Source: Desulfatitalea tepidiphila (lineage in GTDB: Bacteria; Desulfobacterota; Desulfobacteria; Desulfobacterales; Desulfosarcinaceae). Taken from it: 64,000 bases of DNA. The notes under the pieces are model-generated. The model was given only the letters and a program-made list of their open reading frames with translations. It was not told where the DNA came from and searched no databases. Below are positions 19,662-57,243 of the stretch, piece by piece. The stretch lies in contig NZ_BCAG01000003.1 of assembly GCF_001293685.1 (NCBI RefSeq), positions 372,001 through 436,000 on the forward strand. Direction: 5' to 3'. A program made the position numbers and the translations under genes. The first letter of the stretch is position 1, and every line of letters starts with the position of its first letter.

Positions 19662-21563
19662 TCAGGCTGTCAAAGCGGCACGCACCCTGCCGGACAGATC
19701 CAACAGGGTGAACGGTTTGGAGATGAATTGGACGCCCTTGTCCAGGACGCCATGGTGGACGATGACGTTCTCCGTGTAGCCGGACATGTACAGCACTTTC
19801 AGGTCCGGCCGGGAAGTTTTTAGCCGGTCATAGAGATCCTTGCCGTTCATCGAGGGCATGACCACGTCCGTGACGAGCAGATCGAGCGAATCTTTATGAT
19901 CGGCAAAAAGGGCCAGGGCTTCTTCAGGGCCGGCGGCGGAAAGAACCGTATAGCCGAGTTCGCGCAGGCTCGCTTCCGTCACCGTGCGCACCATGTCGTC
20001 GTCCTCGACCAGAAACACGGTTTCCGATCCGGGCGTGGGGTCCTGCTTTTCGTCCGTCCTCGACGGCTCAGGCTCGCCAGCCGAGACAGGCAGGTAGATC
20101 TTGAAGGTGGTGCCCCGAGCCGGTTCGCTGTAGACGTTGATGAAGCCGCCGCCCTGTTTCACGATGCCGTAAACCGTGGCAAGGCCCAGCCCCGTGCCTT
20201 TGCCGGTCTTTTTCGTGGTGAAAAAGGGCTCGAAGATATGCGTAAGGGTCTCAGCGTCCATGCCCGAGCCGTTGTCGCTCACCGAGATTTGCACGAACTC
20301 GCCGGGCATGAATCCGGCGTGTTCCCGGCAATAGGCCTCATCCAGGCTCACGTTGGCTGTTTCGAAGGTCAGGGCGCCGCCCTGGGGCATGGCGTCGCGG
20401 GCGTTGACCGCCAGGTTCATGAGGATCTGTTCGATCTGGGTCGGGTCGAATTCCACATTGGCCAGGTCCTTTCCGGGGAAGAACTTCAAGGCGATGTCTT
20501 CTCCGATCAATCGCGACAGGTTGTCCTCGAAGCCGCCGATGAGGGTGTTGACGTCGAGCACTTTCGGCTCGAATACCTGTTTCCTGGAGAAGGCCAGCAG
20601 CTGCCGGGTGATGTCCTGGGCGCGCCTGGCGGCCCGTTGAATCTGCTCGATGTCACGGGGTAGCGGATCATTCGGCGCGAGTTTGGCCTTGAGGAGCTCC
20701 GAGTAGCCCAAAATAACGCCCAGCATGTTGTTGAAGTCGTGTGCGATGCCGCCGGCCAGGCGTCCGACGGACTCCATTTTCTGGGCCTGAAGCAGTTGGG
20801 CCTCGAGCTTTTGCCGGTCGCGCTCCGCGTTCAGCCGCTCGGATATGTCGCGGACATAGGCGACATGATGCTCCTGATCATCGAAGACGACATTTTTGGA
20901 ACGGATCTCGACCGGAAACGCCGTTCCGTCCTTGCGCCGGTGCAGCCTTTCGAGCCGCGCGCCGCCGCTTTTTTTGACTTTTTCCCAATGGGGTTCCCAC
21001 TGCTCCCGGGTGAATTCCGCGTCGATGTCCCACAGGTGCAGGCGCATCAGCTCGTCCCGGCTGTAGCCCAGCGAGCGGCAGGCCTGTTCGTTGACATAGG
21101 GGAACCGGCCTTGCGCGTCTATCCAGAAGACCGCGTCGGGGGACGAGTCCACCGAAATCTGGAACCGCCGCAGGGACCGCTCCTTGGCCAGGCGTTGGGA
21201 TCGGTCGCGAACGATTCCCCACATGCCCGCAGGGCGTCCATCGGGGGCCCTGGCCAGCACGATCCGCAGTTCCACGGGCACGATGCGGCCGTCCTTGCGG
21301 CGGTACTCTTTTTCAAAAAGGTCGGAGTAGCCCCTTGTGCGCACCTGCTCGTCAATGACCCGCTTTTCGAGCTCATGCCATTTGGGCGGGGTGAGGTCGA
21401 AAATGGTCATTCCGAGCAGTTCATTCCTGTCGTAGCCGGTCAGATCCAGAAAATGCTGGTTGGCCTCGGTCACCCGGCCTTCCATGTCGCAAGCCCCGAA
21501 GGCATCCATGATGTTGGCGCAAAGCTGCTGGAACAGGGACTGGGGGTGAGTGGCATGGACCAT
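19662..21563 (-). CDS. PAS-PAS hybrid histidine kinase with receiver
   Basis: The 633-residue cytosolic sensor kinase has two PAS domains (about 10-125 and 130-255), a histidine box (Gly-Gly-Ile-Ala-His-Asp-Phe-Asn-Asn, about 280), an HATPase with N box (Asn-Leu-Ala-Val-Asn-Ala-Arg-Asp) and G boxes (Asp-Asn-Gly-Ser-Gly-Met; Gly-Lys-Gly-Thr-Gly-Leu-Gly-Leu), and a C-terminal receiver with Leu-Leu-Val-Thr-Asp-Val-Val-Met-Pro. It lacks membrane helices, so it senses an internal signal. GGAGG precedes ATG 21563. The final output partner is not encoded nearby. Confidence 0.9.
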
Positions 21564-28015: not shown

Positions 28016-30622
28016 TCACACCCTTTTGACGGGTTCTTCATCCAATACCTGCCGGACGGAGGCGGCCAGGTCGCTGATGGTCAAGGGTTTCATCAGGATC
28101 CCCTTGATGCCGGGTGAATTGACCTTGGCATGGGCGATCCTCTCACTGAATCCTGTGCACAGGATCACGGGCAGGTCCGGCCGGAGGGTTTCGAGATGGC
28201 GCGCAAGCTGTTCTCCGGTCACGACGGGCATGGCCATGTCCGTGATCACCAGGTCGTAGGCGCCGGCATTGGCCTCGAGTTCCTGCAGTGCATCGCTGCT
28301 GCTGGTGAAGGCCGTCACCCGGTAACCCAGCCGTTCGAGGGTCAGCCGTTGCACTTCGACGATCATCTTTTCGTCATCCACCAGCAAGATCCGTTCGGTG
28401 CCGGTGGCATGCTCGACAGGCGGCGCGGGCGTGTCGGTCACGTCAATACGATGGGGTATGGGCAGGTAGATCTTGAACGTCGTCCCCTGGCCAGCTTCGC
28501 TGTAGACACGGATATCGCCGCCGTGATCCTTGACGATGCCGTAGACCACGGATAGCCCCAGTCCGGTGCCCTTGCCGTGGGGCTTGGTGGTGAAATAGGG
28601 GTCGAAGATCTTGGCCAGAAGGTGGCCGGGGATGCCGTGGCCGGTATCGGTCACCGACAGAAGGGCATACCGTCCGGGTTGCAGGGGCGCCCCGGATGCA
28701 TCGTTTCCCGTGAATTGGACCTGGCGCAAGTCGATGGTGATGCTGCCGCCGTCCTTTTCCACGGCGTGATAGGCGTTGGTGATCAGGTTCATGGCGATCT
28801 GATGCAGGTTGGTGGGGTCGGCCAGCACCGGATCGCAATCGCGCTGGATGTTGAGGTGCATCTCGATGTTGGACGGAATGGTGGCGCGCGTCAGCTTCAC
28901 GGCCTCGGCGAGGATCTGCTGGAAGCGGACCGGCATTTTATGGTGCTCGGCCTGGCGGCTGAACGAGAGGATCTGCTTGACCAGGTCTGACGCACGTTGA
29001 CCGGCCTTGAGAATTTCGGCGGCATGTTTCCGATGTTTGTTTTCGGCGGGCAGATCGTGCAGCAGCATTTCCGAAAAGGCGATGATGGGGGTCAGAATAT
29101 TGTTGAAGTCGTGGGCGATACCGCCGGCCAGGGCCCCGATGGCCTCGCTTTTTTGGGCCTGTTGCAGGCGGTCTTCGATCTTTTTTCGGTCGGAAATGTC
29201 GCGGTTGCTCACCCGCAGCCCCAGACGGGTGCCGTCCGGTCGGGCGATGGGGATGCAACGGTGGTTGATCCAGATAGTGTGGCCGGCCTTGTGAACGATG
29301 CGTAAATCGATATGGCAGGCATGGGTGTCGTGACCCTTTTGAGAAAGGTGCCGTTGGAAGGATTCAAGGTCCAGCGGGTGCACGATCCGTTCGATCAACC
29401 CCGGATCCTGCATGAATTCGGAGATATCATAGCCGGTGACCCTTTTGCACGAGGGGGACATCCACACCAGGCGCTGGTCGGCACCGAGCCAATACTCCCA
29501 GTCATAGGTGAAATCGGCGATGGCACGGAGCTCTTCCTGGCCCTTGATCAGGGCGGAGGCCATTTCGTTGAAGGACTTGGACAGGGTTGCCAGTTCGTCG
29601 GGCGCCTTGCCCAGGTTGGCCCGGGCGCCCAGGTCACCGCGGCCGAACGAGTGTGTGACCGCCACGAGTTTCTCGATGGGATCGAGCAGCATGGTGCCGC
29701 CCATGAGCATGGATATGCTCACCGCCAGCACGGCCGCCGTGAACATCAGGACTAAGTTTCTGGCCAATATCTGATTGGCCGGCCGCAGCACCAATGCCTC
29801 GGGGATGCCCGCCCACATATAGGCGTAAGGCTCGGTGGCGTCGTCCAGCGTGACCGGCTGATAGGCATAGATGCGCCTAACCCCGTCCGGACCGTTATGA
29901 ATGGATATTCCCGGTGTCAGGGCGCGCTGAAGGGCTTCCCAGGCCGCGGGGATGATCGGATCACCGATGGGGTTGGTATGGCCCCTGGAGGGATGATGGA
30001 AGAGACGGATGCCATGATGGTCGGCGACAGCGAAGAAAGCGCCCGGAGGCATTTCGACCTTGTTGAAAAAGTCCGCAAAACGCTCCAGGCCCACGGCGGC
30101 GGTGAGCACCGCGGAGATGTTGCCCGTTCGGTCGAACACCGGATGGGCAAAGGGCAGGGAGGGCAGTTGCTGGCCCACGCGGGTGACGATATATTCTCCC
30201 ACCGCGAATTTTTTTTCGCTCAAGGCCCGCCGGATGTGGAGACGGTCGGCCAGATTGGTTCCTTTGTGAGGGACGGCCGACGCGAAAACATCGCCATCGG
30301 CGTCCACGGCCGCAATGTTGATATAGGATGGATTGCTCTTGATCACCTCGAGGAACACGGTGCTGCAGGTGATACAGCTTTTGTCTTTGATTTCATTGAG
30401 TTGGGAAAGGGTTGCCAGGGTCTGGCGGGCGGCGTGGGTGACGCCTCGTTGCACTTCGGCCATGGACTTGGCGAGGAACAGGACCTCTCGTTGGGCGTTT
30501 TCAATGGCATTGCGCCGCAGTTCCAGGCCGGAATAAAAGATGATCAGCAAGGCCGGCAGGAGAGCGAGGAGCACCAAAAAATTGAATATTTTCGCAATGG
30601 ATCTTTTTTTGAAAAGGGGCAT
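28016..30622 (-). CDS. Membrane-bound hybrid histidine kinase (Cache, HAMP, PAS, receiver)
   Basis: This is an 868-residue inner-membrane sensor. Helix 1 lies at about 12-32, then a periplasmic Cache-type domain (about 35-285) that includes a Cys-Ile-Thr-Cys pair at 83-86, helix 2 at about 288-309, HAMP, a PAS domain (about 370-490), a histidine box (Gly-Gly-Ile-Ala-His-Asp-Phe-Asn-Asn), a complete HATPase (Asp-Thr-Gly-His-Gly-Ile; Gly-Lys-Gly-Thr-Gly-Leu-Gly-Leu) and a C-terminal receiver (Val-Ile-Thr-Asp-Met-Ala-Met-Pro). It senses an external small molecule. The Cys pair could bind a metal or form a disulfide. The methyltransferase follows it on the same strand. Confidence 0.9.
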   Translation of the reverse strand: MPLFKKRSIAKIFNFLVLLALLPALLIIFYSGLELRRNAIENAQREVLFLAKSMAEVQRGVTHAARQTLATLSQLNEIKDKSCITCSTVFLEVIKSNPSYINIAAVDADGDVFASAVPHKGTNLADRLHIRRALSEKKFAVGEYIVTRVGQQLPSLPFAHPVFDRTGNISAVLTAAVGLERFADFFNKVEMPPGAFFAVADHHGIRLFHHPSRGHTNPIGDPIIPAAWEALQRALTPGISIHNGPDGVRRIYAYQPVTLDDATEPYAYMWAGIPEALVLRPANQILARNLVLMFTAAVLAVSISMLMGGTMLLDPIEKLVAVTHSFGRGDLGARANLGKAPDELATLSKSFNEMASALIKGQEELRAIADFTYDWEYWLGADQRLVWMSPSCKRVTGYDISEFMQDPGLIERIVHPLDLESFQRHLSQKGHDTHACHIDLRIVHKAGHTIWINHRCIPIARPDGTRLGLRVSNRDISDRKKIEDRLQQAQKSEAIGALAGGIAHDFNNILTPIIAFSEMLLHDLPAENKHRKHAAEILKAGQRASDLVKQILSFSRQAEHHKMPVRFQQILAEAVKLTRATIPSNIEMHLNIQRDCDPVLADPTNLHQIAMNLITNAYHAVEKDGGSITIDLRQVQFTGNDASGAPLQPGRYALLSVTDTGHGIPGHLLAKIFDPYFTTKPHGKGTGLGLSVVYGIVKDHGGDIRVYSEAGQGTTFKIYLPIPHRIDVTDTPAPPVEHATGTERILLVDDEKMIVEVQRLTLERLGYRVTAFTSSSDALQELEANAGAYDLVITDMAMPVVTGEQLARHLETLRPDLPVILCTGFSERIAHAKVNSPGIKGILMKPLTISDLAASVRQVLDEEPVKRV

Positions 30623-31383: not shown

Positions 31384-31687
31384 TTGCAAGCCTGATGGAT
31401 TGTGATTCACCTTGAAGGGCATGCATGACAGAAGTTTTTTGACAAAAAATTCGCATCGTAAAGGTGATGGCAGGCGTGGGTGGGGCAGGTGGCCAGGGCC
31501 ACGTGAGCCTGCGGTCATAGAGCCAGTTAAATGCAAACGGCGGACAAGCGGCCCAGACTGTTTGAGCGCAGCGAGTTTCTGGGCCGCCCGCCGTGCATTT
31601 TACCGGCTCTTGACCGCTTGGCGTGTGGCATCGGCCAACTGTTACGCCCACGCCAGGTTAAATAATAGCGTTCAGTTAGAATCGCTG
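31384..31687 (+). mobile_element. 305-bp fold-back element, copy A
   Basis: This element is about 80% identical by eye to copies at 42466-42770 (opposite orientation) and 56820-57125. The right end, AGTTAGAATCGCTG, matches the family; the left end has decayed and no target duplication is visible. The centre forms a strong hairpin (GCGGCCCAGA with TCTGGGCCGC). The frames inside are by-products of the repeat, not genes. The 180 bases before it (31205-31383) hold no supported gene. Confidence 0.75.
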
Positions 31688-34322: not shown

Positions 34323-37300
34323 TTACACTTCCGGCGGAATGGATTTTCGCGATTTGATGTTACGAATCAGCCTGAAAACGGGTTCGGTCCAATCGGACAC
34401 GCGGCTGGGTTTGTGACGGTAGATCTCCGATAGAGAAAGGTGGGGATCGCGCACCGGGCTGCGCAAATAGTAGCGCAGCGCCGCCAGTCGCTCCTGGAGC
34501 TGCTTTTCGACCTGGCCGCGCAGCTCTTCCTTGATGGCCAGGATGCGCTCCTTGATCTCCTGGGGCGGGCTTTCACTCTTGTATTTGGCCAGCTTATACT
34601 GGATGCGCAGATGGATCAGCTCTTCTAGACGTTTTCCGTAGGAGGGGCTGAGCCAGACCACCTCCGGGATCAAATCCCCGAAATGGGTGACGCCCAGAAT
34701 GTCCTTTCCCTGTGACCAGTAGCCCATCAAAAAATCCTGATCCAGGTCCATGTAATTTTTCAGGGGCATGTACATGCGCCGCAGGTAGGTGAGCACTTTC
34801 TCCGTTTTCTTCTTGTGTCCGCCGATGATGACCGATCCGCCCACCTCTCCAGGTTTGACACCCTTTGTCCAGGGCGCGCCGGTAATGCCGAAGTCGTTCA
34901 ATACAGGGATGAGCATGAGGGCCGAAAGGGTGTTGATGGCCAGGGCATAGCCGGCCGATGGGCCGCCCACGTTGTACGAGGCCGACAACAATTGGTGGTG
35001 GATGGTGTAGTCTTCCAGGAAATCGCCCAACAGCCGGGCGGTGCTCACCTTGGGATCCAGCCCCTGAAGGTAGTTTTTCACCATGGTGAGCGCCTCCTGG
35101 GCCGATTGCTGGGTCATCTGAACGGCCATGTCCAGCTGGGCGGCTGCGGAAGAGGGGGAGGACACCGCACCGGTGACCAAAACGTTCTTGGACGACACCC
35201 GGTAGGTCAGGCTGGTGGCAATGGGCAGCAGCACGCCGGCCGTATCGCTGGCGCCTACGCCGATGATGAAACCGACCTGGGGCTCCTGGCTCAACTCGGC
35301 CTCGAGGAACTCGTCGAGTTGGACCTTGCCTTTTTTGACCGGACTCTGGGAGATTTCCGCCTTGGCAGAGGCCAGGTGCGAGCGCGTCAGCGGATAGGCA
35401 TCGGCCGATTCGACCCGGTCGCAGGCCGCCTTGATCTCGTCGAAGTGGTCCAGGATTTTCAGTGGCTTGGCTTTGAGCTCGTTGCGCAGGGGGGCCGGCA
35501 GGTCCACGGCTTCGACGATGCCCACCAGTGTTTTGAGGTTGAATTTGACGAAATTGACCCGAATATCTTCGTCGGCTGCCTGCATGTCGCGGAATCTGAG
35601 CAGGACTTCGTATTCGGTGCTGCGCAGGGCCTTTGCCTTTTCGACGAAGGCGGCGTAATCGGCCGGGGTGTTGCACAATCCCTGGGCGCTTTCGATGATC
35701 GTCTTGACGCTCAGCTCATCGGTCAAAGGGATGTTTTCCAGGGAGATGGCGACGATGCCTTCGATGTCGTCTTTGCTCATCATGCCCGAGATTTCAAGCA
35801 CCTTGAGCCTCTTGGAACGAATCAGGGCCGGATCGATAATGTCCAGGCGATTTGTGGTCAGTACGGTGAAGACCCGCCGCAGGGGAATTTCGCCGTCGAT
35901 CAGGCTCAAGAACTTGTTGGTCAGCTTGTCTGCAGGAGAGCCGCCCGAGGCGCTGCGCTTGGGGGCCAGGGCGTCGCCTTCGTCGAAGAAGACCACCGTG
36001 GGTGCGATCATCTTGGCGATGTCGTAGAGTTTTTCCATGTTCTCCACTGCGCCGTCGATAGGGTTGACCGGGTCCTGCAAGGCCGCGGCGCTGGTGGCGA
36101 TGTCGTGGACCTCCTTGTTCTCCCCGAGCCAGGTGCGAACCAAAAAGGTCTTGCCGCTGCCCGGCGGCCCATTGAGCACCACTCCTTTTTCTTCATCGAC
36201 GCCGTAGTAGAGACAGTTGTTGGTCATTTCGGAGAAGATATCCTTGATGCCGCCCACATACTCTTCCCACCGGACGTGGCGATCCATGCGATCGACGATG
36301 CGTTTGTACAGGTCGCCGTAAGAATTCTGGGCCACCAGTTCGAAGGCGTTGCGCACCAGAAAGGGGTCCTGAAGATACGTTGTGGTGAAACCGCTTTTTA
36401 TCTCCACGATGGAATGGACGAGTTTGCGGACGTAGGAGGGGATCACCTTCAAGGTGCGTTCCTTGAAAACCTGGTAGATCAATTCCACGGCGCGATCCAG
36501 GTCAGCCTGGGTGATGGGGGCTGGTCTATCCGGGGCCGGCCTGACCGGCCTTCCCGCGGTTTGCACTGCGATGTCGTGACGCTGCAACTCCAGGCGCACG
36601 ACCTCGCGCAGGTTGGACGGATTTTTCCAGAAATCGGCCAGGTTGATGATTTTGCCTTTTTCCACGAAGCGCCGGTAGATGGCCGCGTCGAAACGTTCGG
36701 GCTGGTCGGTGGTGGCCACGAGCAGGCAGTCCCGCTTGCCGCTGATGATCTCATCGATAACGATATTGGAGGTGTCGATCAGGGTGCGCTGCTGGCGTTC
36801 GGCGCCGCTGGCATGGCCCTCGACCCGTCCGAAGGCGCTGTGCGCCTCTTCCACGTGGCGGATGGTGGTTTTTCGGGCATCTCCCAGGGCACGCTTGAAG
36901 TAGTTGCCCGGCTCGCCCGCCAGGGCGGTCTGATAATCGTTGGGCGTGATCATGGCATAGTCGACCTGGATGCCCTGCTCTTCGAGAATCGAGAGATTGC
37001 GGTTGATCTGGCGTTTGAAGATCCAGCGGATCAGGGGAATGCGGCCCAAACGCTTGTAGAATTTGAGGCGCTTGAGACGCACCATTTCCATGGCGAGGGT
37101 CGGATCGACCTCTTCCAGACTCTTCCAGAACGGTTCGTCGGCCAGCAACTCCTCTTTCTTCAGGTTCAGGTCGATTTCGGGCAGCACCTGGTCGCTGAAG
37201 ATCACCTTTTCGATGGCCTCGGTGACCGTCGATGTCTTGCCGCTTCCCGAAGGGCCGACCACCAGCAGGAGAGGGGCCTTGGGGACGACTGGGTCGGAGA

Positions 37301-37772
37301 CGTACTCCTTGCGGATGTGGGCCCGGTAGACTTTTTCGAACAGGTTCTCCAGTTCGATGGGCACGTGCACATCGGTCAGGCTCTCGTCGAGCAGACTGAG
37401 CAGGTAGAGATAATCCCTGGACGTCACCTCTTTTTCCAGGATGCGATTCCAGGCGTCCTGGGGATTGGCCTGACCGGAAAGTTCGAACCGCTTCTGCCAA
37501 TCAGTCAGGATGGCAGGGTCCTTGAGGACGCGAAAGGTCTTTTCCGGCGAATCCATGAAAAAGGTAAGTCCCCATTCGGCCAGGCTGCTCAGCCATATTC
37601 GCGGCGGTTTGTACTGGTTGAGCCGGGCACGCATGAAGGCCTTGGTTTCGTATGGCCATGACGCCACCAGGGCCTGAATCTCGTTGATTCGGTGTTCAGG
37701 CAGGCGGACATAGGTCACTTTTTTGGTCAGGCGTTTGGGCACCGGACGACTCCTCGGGTCAGAGACCTTCAC
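34323..37772 (-). CDS. Double-AAA Lon-like serine protease
   Basis: The 1149-residue protein has two P-loops, Gly-Pro-Ser-Gly-Ser-Gly-Lys-Thr (173-180) and Gly-Pro-Pro-Gly-Ser-Gly-Lys-Thr (535-542). The second has a Walker B (Phe-Phe-Asp-Glu-Gly-Asp, 595-600) and sensor 1 (Thr-Thr-Asn, 639-641). The C-terminal third is a Lon-type protease with Ser939 in Gly-Gly-Pro-Ser-Ala-Gly and Lys987 in Gly-Gly-His-Lys, spaced as in Lon. The usual Lon N-domain is absent; instead a helical region and an extra AAA domain come first. It begins three bases after the SPFH gene, so the two should work together, probably in degrading membrane or damaged proteins. Confidence 0.82.
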   Translation of the reverse strand: MKVSDPRSRPVPKRLTKKVTYVRLPEHRINEIQALVASWPYETKAFMRARLNQYKPPRIWLSSLAEWGLTFFMDSPEKTFRVLKDPAILTDWQKRFELSGQANPQDAWNRILEKEVTSRDYLYLLSLLDESLTDVHVPIELENLFEKVYRAHIRKEYVSDPVVPKAPLLLVVGPSGSGKTSTVTEAIEKVIFSDQVLPEIDLNLKKEELLADEPFWKSLEEVDPTLAMEMVRLKRLKFYKRLGRIPLIRWIFKRQINRNLSILEEQGIQVDYAMITPNDYQTALAGEPGNYFKRALGDARKTTIRHVEEAHSAFGRVEGHASGAERQQRTLIDTSNIVIDEIISGKRDCLLVATTDQPERFDAAIYRRFVEKGKIINLADFWKNPSNLREVVRLELQRHDIAVQTAGRPVRPAPDRPAPITQADLDRAVELIYQVFKERTLKVIPSYVRKLVHSIVEIKSGFTTTYLQDPFLVRNAFELVAQNSYGDLYKRIVDRMDRHVRWEEYVGGIKDIFSEMTNNCLYYGVDEEKGVVLNGPPGSGKTFLVRTWLGENKEVHDIATSAAALQDPVNPIDGAVENMEKLYDIAKMIAPTVVFFDEGDALAPKRSASGGSPADKLTNKFLSLIDGEIPLRRVFTVLTTNRLDIIDPALIRSKRLKVLEISGMMSKDDIEGIVAISLENIPLTDELSVKTIIESAQGLCNTPADYAAFVEKAKALRSTEYEVLLRFRDMQAADEDIRVNFVKFNLKTLVGIVEAVDLPAPLRNELKAKPLKILDHFDEIKAACDRVESADAYPLTRSHLASAKAEISQSPVKKGKVQLDEFLEAELSQEPQVGFIIGVGASDTAGVLLPIATSLTYRVSSKNVLVTGAVSSPSSAAAQLDMAVQMTQQSAQEALTMVKNYLQGLDPKVSTARLLGDFLEDYTIHHQLLSASYNVGGPSAGYALAINTLSALMLIPVLNDFGITGAPWTKGVKPGEVGGSVIIGGHKKKTEKVLTYLRRMYMPLKNYMDLDQDFLMGYWSQGKDILGVTHFGDLIPEVVWLSPSYGKRLEELIHLRIQYKLAKYKSESPPQEIKERILAIKEELRGQVEKQLQERLAALRYYLRSPVRDPHLSLSEIYRHKPSRVSDWTEPVFRLIRNIKSRKSIPPEV

Positions 37773-37775
37773 ATC

Positions 37776-38744
37776 TTACTGTGATTTGGTATTGCTTCCG
37801 GCCTTGTTTGCCGTCGGCGCCGAAGGCGCTTGGGGCGCTGGCAGTGTCAGGGCCGGCGACATTTCGGTGTTCTGGATCACGACCGTATGCTGTCCCTCCT
37901 GGTTTTTTTCATAGGCCGTGGCCCATTTCTGCTGGGTGAGGAATTGTAAAATGGCGGTATCGGTCATGCCGTCGGTCCGGCCGATGCTTTTTTGGAGCGC
38001 CTGGATACCGTCCACATAGGCCGCGTAGAGCTTGCGGATGCGGCTGGCTTCCTGGTCGGCGGCATAGTTTTCGGCCTCGGCGATCAGCTCACGCCGTTTT
38101 TTCTCCTCCGTAGCCTCCACCAGTTTGTCGCCGAAGCGAGTCTCTTTGAGCACGAAACTCACGATATCGATGCCGTATTTTTTTTCCAGGGTCGGCCCGC
38201 CCACATTGATGGGGCTCGACTTGAGCTCCTTGAAAATTTTTTCCTTGATTTCCTCGCGATCGGAGATGAGTTGGTCCACCGGTTCGGCCTGCAAAAGGTC
38301 CTTGACGATCCCGTCGTAATCGCCCTGCAGCAGTTGCATGGGTTCGAGGTTTTGGATGGCCCAGGTTTCCAGGTCCCGGATTCGGTAGGTCAACACCCCC
38401 GAGGTCCATAAGGCCACATTGCCCTTGGAAATGATCCGCATGGGTTCGAGCTGGCCGCCCAGGTAGAGTCGCTGGTTCATCAAGGCCACCTCCTGTTCGA
38501 TGCGGGTGAAAAAGGGCCACCGCACATGCCAGCCCACGTCGGTGACCGCCTCGCGTGCGCCGCCGAATCTTTCGAGCACGACGGCGTAATTCATTTTGAC
38601 CTTGTAGATGGTCTTGGTGGCGTACACCAGGGCGATGAGTCCGTAGACCAGACAAACGATGGTCACCAGGGCGATGATGCGGCGAAGGACCTTCTTGACC
38701 AGTGCTCTGCGGAGAAATTGTTGTTGATGCTGGTTGTCCGCCAT
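37776..38744 (-). CDS. SPFH/prohibitin-domain membrane protein (HflC-like)
   Basis: The 322-residue protein is anchored by one helix (about residues 22-43), followed by the SPFH domain (about 50-230; Tyr-Ala-Val-Val-Leu-Glu-Arg-Phe-Gly-Gly, and Gly-Trp-His-Val-Arg-Trp-Pro-Phe). A charged helix rich in Glu, Lys and Ala (about 205-245) should form the ring wall of an oligomer, and the tail is rich in Pro and Ala. SPFH proteins build membrane rings that cage AAA proteases, as HflK/C do with FtsH. GGAG precedes ATG 38744; longer frames upstream lack a site. The partner gene follows after three bases. Confidence 0.85.
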   Translation of the reverse strand: MADNQHQQQFLRRALVKKVLRRIIALVTIVCLVYGLIALVYATKTIYKVKMNYAVVLERFGGAREAVTDVGWHVRWPFFTRIEQEVALMNQRLYLGGQLEPMRIISKGNVALWTSGVLTYRIRDLETWAIQNLEPMQLLQGDYDGIVKDLLQAEPVDQLISDREEIKEKIFKELKSSPINVGGPTLEKKYGIDIVSFVLKETRFGDKLVEATEEKKRRELIAEAENYAADQEASRIRKLYAAYVDGIQALQKSIGRTDGMTDTAILQFLTQQKWATAYEKNQEGQHTVVIQNTEMSPALTLPAPQAPSAPTANKAGSNTKSQ

Positions 38745-42465: not shown

Positions 42466-42770
42466 TAGGGGTTCTGACTGAATACTATTCATTAAACCCG
42501 GCGTGGATAGAGCAGGTGGTCGATGCCACACGCCAAGCGGTCAAGTGCCGGTAACATGCACGGCGGGCGGCCCAGAAACTCGCTGCGCTCAAACAGTCTG
42601 GGCCGCATATCCGCCGTTTGCATTCAACCGGCACTATTGACCGCAGGCTCACGTGGCCCTGGCCACCTGCTCCACCCACGCCTGCCATGTCCGTTGCCAT
42701 GCGAATTTCTATCGAATTCCTTCTGTAATGCATGCCCTTCAAGGTGAATCACATTCAGTTGGAATTGCTG
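42466..42770 (-). mobile_element. 305-bp fold-back element, copy B
   Basis: This is the best preserved of three copies. It is flanked by the 9-bp direct repeat ATAATCCCG (42457-42465 and 42771-42779). The ends are imperfect inverted repeats: TAGGGGTTCTGACTGAATAC on the left, CAGCAATTCCAACTGAATGT read inward from the right. Inside, nearly the whole element can fold on itself, with the hairpin GCGGCCCAGA/TCTGGGCCGC (42567-42576, 42597-42606) at the tip. It encodes no transposase, so it is a MITE that was moved by an enzyme encoded elsewhere. Confidence 0.85.
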
Positions 42771-56622: not shown

Positions 56623-57243
56623 CACGAGTCACCTCCTTGTAAAAAAGGCATGGGTCAGGAACTGGCGCCGGCTGCGCCGGGCTGTGCCGCAGTCGCATCG
56701 CAGGAATGGAAACCGGGGGAGTGGCCGCTTATCGAACGCCATTGTCGGCGATACGGGGTCCGTTGTCAATCCCGGCGCTCGGCCAACCGCTGAGCAGGAC
56801 AACGGAATTCGGTGGACGCCAGGAGTTCTATCTGAATGTGATTCACCCTGAAGGGCGTGTTTTCCAAAGGTAGTTTGATAAAAAAATTCGCATGGCAACG
56901 GTATTGGCAGGCCCGGGTGGGGCAGGTGGCCAGGGCCACGTGAGCCTGCGGTCTTAGAGCCAGTTGAATGCGAACGGCGGACAAGCGGCCCAGACTGTTT
57001 GAGCGCAGCGAGTTTCTGGGCCGCCCGCCGTGCATTTTACTGGCTCTTGACCGCTTGGCGTGTGGCATCGGCCATCTGTTCCACCCGGGCCGGATTTAAT
57101 GAATGGTATTGAGTTAGAATCGCTGGGTGGACATGGGGATGCTTTTCGGCTAAATTCTGAGAGCGATTGTAATCCTAATCCCATCCATAAGGCTGCTTCG
57201 GCGGCACATTGACATGTCTTCATCACAGAAAAAGGAGCGCTGC
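56623..57243. other. Divergent intergenic region with fold-back element
   Basis: The region between sdhA (minus) and the SDR gene (plus) contains copy C of the 305-bp element (56820-57125). The flanks must hold both promoters; none is clear enough to mark. The plus-strand TTGACA at 57208 is too close to the SDR start to serve it. Confidence 0.4.
56820..57125 (+). mobile_element. 305-bp fold-back element, copy C
   Basis: Both ends are preserved: it starts CAGGAGTTCTATCTGAATGT and ends GAGTTAGAATCGCTG. Flanking bases are GGTGGACGC (56811-56819) and GGTGGACAT (57126-57134), identical at the first seven of nine positions, consistent with an ageing 9-bp target duplication. The central hairpin is intact. 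No gene inside. Confidence 0.82.

Follow-up and report, generated by a model that had tools for sequence, protein, structure and literature searches.

A 64,000-nucleotide stretch of the Desulfatitalea tepidiphila genome (contig NZ_BCAG01000003.1, positions 372,001 to 436,000; hereafter the window, numbered from its first letter) carries a gene for an SPFH protein followed by a gene for a large protease with two AAA modules and a C-terminal Lon-type domain. The two genes are paired in all cases in which the pairing can be tested, their domain composition and their catalytic and ATPase residues are conserved, and structure prediction recovers the Lon and AAA folds. The interpretation that we favour, with moderate confidence, is that the pair codes for a two-gene proteolytic unit of the inner membrane in which an SPFH assembly would localise or gate a double-ring Lon-type protease, in a manner resembling HflKC and FtsH.

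Conserved Pairing of the SPFH and Protease Genes

Both genes lie on the minus strand, as do all of their features described below. The SPFH gene (37776-38744) codes for 322 residues, and the protease gene (34323-37772) codes for 1149 residues from an upstream GTG start that leaves three bases between the two genes. Translation and Pfam matches confirm the succession of an SPFH gene and a gene for a large protease with two P-loops that a preliminary description of this DNA had proposed. N-terminal conservation among the relatives suggests that the protease probably starts at the GTG at position 37742, resulting in a protein of 1139 residues and an intergenic gap of 33 bases, the exact start being our choice.

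The same description had left room for the two genes being rarely adjacent in other genomes, and they turn out to be adjacent in every testable case. Specifically, 60 loci were collected from genome_contigs by a scan with six 8-residue patterns taken from one sequence, so that distant relatives outside the phylum would be missed. In 52 of these loci the SPFH gene is located on the same strand directly before the protease gene, at an aligned-end distance of -44 to +113 bases, and in the remaining eight the contigs begin inside the protease gene, so the upstream DNA is missing; two of the 60 (L042 and L058) are pieces of one bin. Moreover, among 297 genomes of the phylum the same 11 carry the protease and the SPFH gene, adjacent by coordinates in 11/11, and among 194 genomes of the order the protease occurs in 36 and the SPFH gene in 34, adjacent in 34/34, the two protease-only genomes (G595, G634) having contigs that start inside the protease gene. 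When the order is restricted to good-quality genomes, each gene is found in 24 out of 123. A second SPFH match in one genome (G667) lies 404 bases from a contig end, and four SPFH matches contain a stop codon (G126 in the phylum set; G640, G678 and G633 in the order set). These sets are not independent, because some of the order and phylum genomes are also loci of the 60-locus set.

It is conceivable that common descent keeps the genes together with no joint function, given that they are co-inherited within one phylum and the genomes do not represent independent events. We consider this extremely improbable, since the two genes stay together in relatives whose protease is only 50-52% identical, while the other neighbours change, and neither gene occurs alone in the 194 order genomes except at contig breaks and for the additional SPFH match close to the end of a contig.

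No third conserved gene emerges from open reading frame (ORF) clustering of the 52 paired loci, many of which have flanks cut by contig ends. The commonest other neighbour is an amidohydrolase (18/52 loci), followed by a histidine kinase, an alpha/beta hydrolase and others in at most 14; nine members of the neighbour clusters were checked in Pfam, one of them returning no match. A wider operon was accordingly rejected, no third gene being present in more than 18 of the 52 loci. One neighbour cluster (cluster 4, 13 loci) consists of shadow ORFs read on the strand opposite to the SPFH gene, owing to which the SPFH count of 40 given by the clustering is too low and was not used. Simple patterns reveal no heat-shock or sigma54 promoter in 51 upstream regions. 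Sigma70-like sites (3 against 1.7 expected) and terminator-like sites (4 against 6.3 expected) occur at chance level. As separate observations on these loci, a gene for an SPFH-zinc-ribbon protein (Band_7_1; one member checked) is located two genes upstream of the pair at L062:1977-3230 and in six other loci, all from Desulfosarcina and relatives, which thus hold two different SPFH genes close together, and in the record of Desulfosarcina cetonica (L055) the protease ORF is split, either by a mutation or through faulty assembly.

The Lon-Type Protease Domain

The Lon (S16) domain covers approximately residues 822-1045 of the protease (34638-35309) and is recognised by Lon_C (PF05362; 23.2 bits, cut-off 21.1), by archaeal LonB (1xhk, E 3.4e-6) and by the structural comparisons with Foldseek and VIA-align. 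Conservation was followed in an alignment of 47 rows, comprising the window protein and 46 of the 60 loci (those with a protein of more than 1000 residues and a stop); the other 14 loci were dropped as cut or frame-broken, and two of the rows retained (L015 and L033) are without the N-terminus. The serine of the Ser939/Lys987 dyad put forward in the preliminary description withstands this comparison, and its lysine does not. Ser939, in the motif GGPSAG (codon 34956-34958), is present in 47/47 rows and aligns with S679 of E. coli Lon. Residue 987, aligned with E. coli K720, is Lys in 25/47 rows and Arg in 15/47, and the catalytic lysine is instead predicted to be Lys989, the third lysine of GGHKKK (codon 34806-34808), which is present in 47/47 rows and aligns both with E. 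coli K722 and with the lysine of the archaeal GGVNEK motif. The aspartate that precedes GPSAG in E. coli Lon is replaced by glycine in 47/47 rows.

The Lon region was modelled alone because the full-length model gave a predicted local distance difference test (pLDDT) score below 50 over most of the Lon part. Folded in this way, it reaches a mean pLDDT of 66.8 and a predicted template modelling (TM) score of 0.64, and it matches Lon proteases both in Foldseek (E 2.5e-9, query TM 0.46) and in VIA-align (Z 15.1, root mean square deviation (rmsd) 3.0, 178 aligned residues, 26% identity), in agreement with the expectation that the protease residues fall in a Lon fold, as the profile also indicates. 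The same model matches the Lon folds of BrxL and ComM (Z 13.1 and 12.7). By its Lon_C domain, its Ser939/Lys989 pair and its predicted fold, the protease is assigned to peptidase family S16.

The Two AAA Modules

The first AAA module, D1, comprises approximately residues 140-400 (36573-37355), as delimited by secondary structure and by a model match to the two-ring protein NVL, and includes a basic helical insert at residues ~220-263 (net charge +7 in the window protein). Its conserved Walker A motif is GPSGSGKT (residues 173-180; 37233-37256), and its Walker B region reads HVEEAH (residues 306-311; 36840-36857), in which a glutamate replaces the usual first aspartate (EE at 308-309). Residues K179, E308, E309, R367 and R368 are invariant in the 47 rows. 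The second module, D2 (approximately residues 500-735; 35568-36275), is a classical AAA domain (PF00004, 93.6 bits, cut-off 21.2) with the conserved Walker A motif GPPGSGKT (residues 535-542; 36147-36170), the Walker B motif VVFFDEGD (residues 593-600; 35973-35996; DE at 597-598) and the arginine pair R652/R655, again invariant in 47/47 rows. Both P-loops conform to G..G.GK and are invariant throughout the alignment, both P-loop lysines included. The closest solved protein to D2 is p97/VCP (E 2.2e-48), and D2 superposes on proteasome Rpt (Z 19.9, rmsd 5.1, 251 aligned residues), while the full-length model matches NVL across both rings with Z 18.6 over 487 aligned residues at a poor rmsd of 9.0.

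The pore loops of both rings are predominantly aliphatic. In D1 the pore-loop position (Leu284 in the window protein, motif L-A-G-E) is Leu in 39/47 rows, Trp in 6/47 and Phe in 2/47, and in D2 position 572 is Ile, Leu or Val in 41/47 and Trp or Phe in 6/47. In yeast Cdc48, one of the rings is likewise without the aromatic residue, and its reintroduction proves lethal, with signs of abnormal degradation (PMC5511170); in the light of this result, mostly aliphatic loops in both rings are unexpected for a protease. Together with the matches to the BrxL and ComM folds and the invariant glycine in place of the aspartate of E. coli Lon, they fit an alternative in which the Lon domain has a structural role, as it seems to have in the ATPases BrxL and ComM, and membrane complexes are remodelled by the machine and not degraded. 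This alternative appears very unlikely, as Ser939 and Lys989 remain invariant down to 50% identity, which would be unexpected for a dead protease.

Ahead of D1, the structure model places a helical N-terminal region (~residues 1-140). No transmembrane segment is clear in the protease, whose 19-residue hydropathy maxima have a family median of 1.67 and a highest value of 2.07, 39/46 reaching 1.6; those of the window protein are located within the Lon core.

The SPFH Partner and Its Topology

Membership of the SPFH superfamily is clear from Band_7 (PF01145; 65.1 bits, cut-off 23.6), which covers residues 48-233 (38046-38603). The domain is preceded by a basic N-terminal tail (residues 1-22; 38679-38744), predicted to be cytosolic, and by a transmembrane helix (residues 23-41; 38622-38678) with a 19-residue Kyte-Doolittle mean of 2.76, and is followed by a conserved C-terminal tail of the form T-x-V...L-P (residues 287-302; 37839-37886). 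In an alignment of 31 rows, R13 and R22 of the N-terminal tail and T287 and V289 of the C-terminal tail are present in 31/31, and L301 and P302 in 30/31 with one gap.

The label "HflC-like" given to this protein in the preliminary description is not sustained. The hflK model scores 16.7 bits, below its cut-off of 159.4, and a profile of the family ranks a stomatin-like paralogue from the same genome first (23.6 bits), followed by QmcA (19.8), an HflC-like paralogue from the same genome (16.6), a second stomatin-like paralogue from it (12.7), E. coli HflC (5.8) and HflK (4.8). In a tree of 18 proteins, which omits one soluble paralogue from the source genome, the family is nested in none of the HflC, HflK and QmcA groups, its deep position being uncertain on account of long branches. 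By these sequence comparisons, the SPFH protein is best described as a separate clade and not as HflC.

Among 53 proteins (the window protein and its 52 relatives), 52 carry more lysine and arginine on the N-terminal side of the helix and one has equal numbers on both sides, so the protein probably has its N-terminus in the cytosol (N-in) and its SPFH domain in the periplasm, although the test is weak, because the same 15-residue count gives the wrong answer for HflK and HflC of E. coli. With a periplasmic SPFH domain, contact with the protease would go through the short cytosolic tail, whose invariant residues R13 and R22 would be the likeliest docking site. The opposite orientation (N-out), with a cytosolic SPFH domain like that of QmcA, would let the SPFH cage cap the protease in the cytoplasm as a dedicated stomatin-type compartment. 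It is consistent with the family profile scoring highest on a stomatin-like paralogue and QmcA and lowest on E. coli HflC and HflK, and with the QmcA-YbbJ cages that project into the cytoplasm (PMC13086221); nevertheless, the bias of charged residues speaks against it, for what that count is worth, as does the HflC-like paralogue scoring above the second stomatin-like one, and we deem this orientation distinctly unlikely.

The conserved C-terminal tail also suggests a different relationship, in which the SPFH protein is mainly a substrate that the protease clips or turns over, for instance at this tail, controlling cage assembly as reported for PH1510/PH1511. An operon-encoded protease that cuts the C-terminus of a stomatin has precedent (PMC13086221). 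Yet a periplasmic C-terminal tail would be out of reach of a cytosolic ATP-dependent protease if the N-in topology favoured by the charge bias is correct, and we regard the substrate relationship as unlikely.

A Candidate Membrane Proteolytic Machine

In the localising or gating unit that we propose, the oligomeric states of the two proteins, the contact between them and their topology are inferred, as are the activity of the protease and its membrane substrates. The SPFH protein would be anchored by its single N-terminal helix and would oligomerise into a ring or cage like other members of its superfamily. The AAA-AAA-Lon protein would assemble in the cytosol as a double-ring hexamer, with Ser939 and Lys989 in a Lon-type chamber beneath the rings, and the SPFH assembly would localise or gate it at the membrane, probably via the basic cytosolic N-terminal tail. 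Membrane or membrane-associated proteins may then be drawn in by ATP hydrolysis and degraded, in the manner of HflKC-FtsH or of prohibitin and the m-AAA protease, with a different, two-motor serine protease. A role as a membrane quality-control machine is plausible by analogy with these systems.

Several points weigh against this interpretation. HflKC-FtsH and prohibitin are precedents in its favour, as SPFH proteins that act with AAA proteases (PMC12624060 and PMC12048511), but even this precedent is debated, because PHB1/2 and the AAA protease were not stably co-purified in one study (PMC12624060). The protease itself lacks an obvious membrane span, and its mostly aliphatic pore loops are unusual for a threading protease. 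Moreover, the model has a pLDDT below 50 in the stretch that ends at Ser939 and in the one just before Lys989, so that the model gives no reliable geometry for the active site. Lastly, if the SPFH domain is periplasmic, only the tail of ~22 residues can meet the protease, unlike in FtsH, whose periplasmic domain engages HflKC (PMC12624060).

The lack of a clear transmembrane segment in the protease and the probable location of the SPFH domain across the membrane also constrain the earlier idea that the SPFH protein supplies the recruitment function of the Lon N-domain. The helical N-terminal region of the protease could also act as a substrate recruiter.

Comparison with Known Systems

Among the matches listed, no curated model spans the whole protease. 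In HflKC with FtsH and in prohibitin with the m-AAA protease, too, SPFH proteins go together with AAA proteases; here it is the genes that are known to be paired. FtsH differs in several respects: the zinc motif HExxH is found in 0/47 proteins of the family, which has an S16 serine protease and two AAA modules, and FtsH_fam scores 64.1 bits against a cut-off of 600, in the AAA region only. In contrast to HflKC-FtsH, the SPFH protein falls outside the HflK and HflC groups, and its partner is without a clear membrane span.

With LonA and archaeal LonB, the protease has in common the C-terminal S16 fold, the Ser-Lys dyad and an ATPase on the same chain. Conversely, the whole-protein LonA model TIGR00763 reaches 38.1 bits, below its cut-off of 608.05 and over residues 801-1011 only; no LON substrate-binding N-domain appears among the best 25 of 41 Pfam matches; and two AAA modules, with a D2 of p97 type, and an SPFH partner set the protein apart from both. 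The motifs around the catalytic serine are PKDGPSA in LonA and [E/D]GDSA[S/T] in LonB (PMC2605481), whereas GGPSAG occupies this place in 47/47 rows and departs from the LonB motif. Tandem AAA modules are shared with p97/Cdc48, and the L-A-G-E pore loop of D1 resembles the LAGE of p97 D1; however, the protease is fused here on the same chain, the W-F-G pore loop of p97 D2 is mostly I/L/V-D/E-G, and the CDC48 model scores 87.9 bits, below its cut-off of 802.65, with its best stretch in D2.

The operons of NfeD and stomatin (PH1510/PH1511, YbbJ/QmcA) likewise keep an SPFH gene in a conserved two-gene unit, sometimes with a serine protease, but the partner here is an AAA-Lon protein and not NfeD or a ClpP-type protease. 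In its accessible part, a 2009 survey of SPFH proteins names NfeD operons and FtsH as partners, and the accessible part of the table of a 2008 survey of serine proteases holds no AAA-AAA-Lon_C architecture. The titles and abstract openings listed from the open-licence literature yielded no description of a Lon-type AAA protease that has an SPFH partner, which does not establish its absence from print. Hence, pairing of SPFH with an AAA protease is known as such, and this protease class and architecture were not found paired with SPFH in the accessible open literature.

Distribution and Genome Context

A scan of 395 phylum genomes at E 1e-22, with two candidates scored per genome, gives 36 genomes with a match, of which 12 have the full-length protease (>1850 bits) and 24 have D2-like AAA stretches below 95 bits. 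The SPFH-Lon pair is thus an accessory trait, patchy in its phylum, that occurs in some sulfate reducers and their relatives. By record names, the carriers belong to Desulfobacterales and Desulfuromonadales and include Malonomonas rubra DSM 5091, Geothermobacter hydrogeniphilus HR-1, Desulfosarcina widdelii PP31 and Desulfosarcina alkanivorans PL12, the nearest named relatives being Desulfatitalea and other Desulfobacterota. A fragment labelled Archangium is probably contamination; it lies on a 3.3-kb contig and is itself the single match among 146 genomes of the phylum of that genome.

The plasmid and phage collections contain no match at E 1e-20. At least 30 loci in viral_contigs match at 23-33% identity, each around D2 and none covering the protein (longest spans at query residues 402-668, 498-764, 514-742 and 518-810), and PADLOC returns matches to AAA or P-loop stretches only. 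A mobile or defence role was rejected on these grounds, that is, for want of plasmid and phage matches and with the viral and PADLOC matches limited to ATPase stretches.

Beyond the pair in the window, the source genome (5.6 Mb in 7 contigs) holds 7 Band_7 genes, including two HflK-HflC-like pairs (G000:C6:143462-145035 and G000:C3:1224804-1226371), and six other Lon_C matches, three of them strong. Elsewhere in the window, a partly self-complementary repeat of ~266 nucleotides is located outside the large genes at 31398-31663 (plus strand), 42491-42756 (minus) and 56881-57100 (plus), with at least 40 near full-length copies of 87-100% identity in the genome (best 40 of 194 candidates scored), and a gene at 28016-30622, resembling a hybrid histidine kinase by eye, has two stretches that are 74% identical in DNA to ~20089-20820.

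Biological Significance

A broader reading of the architecture, which we offer tentatively and consider possible rather than probable, is that the pair represents a further class of SPFH-linked AAA proteases, in which a p97-like two-ring segregase and a Lon chamber are fused on one chain that is in permanent partnership with a dedicated SPFH cage. In eukaryotic endoplasmic-reticulum-associated degradation, extraction and destruction are split among Erlin, p97 and the proteasome; if the fusion is real, a single bacterial enzyme would unite removal from the membrane with degradation. Known partners of SPFH cages are FtsH-type metalloproteases and NfeD proteins, and the addition of a third type, which is there wherever the pairing can be tested, would suggest that the control of proteases is a general job of SPFH proteins. 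The pair would also offer a compact two-gene system for understanding the control of an ATPase by a cage on the opposite face of a membrane and, for the bacteria that carry it, it may be a separate route for clearing proteins from the cell membrane.

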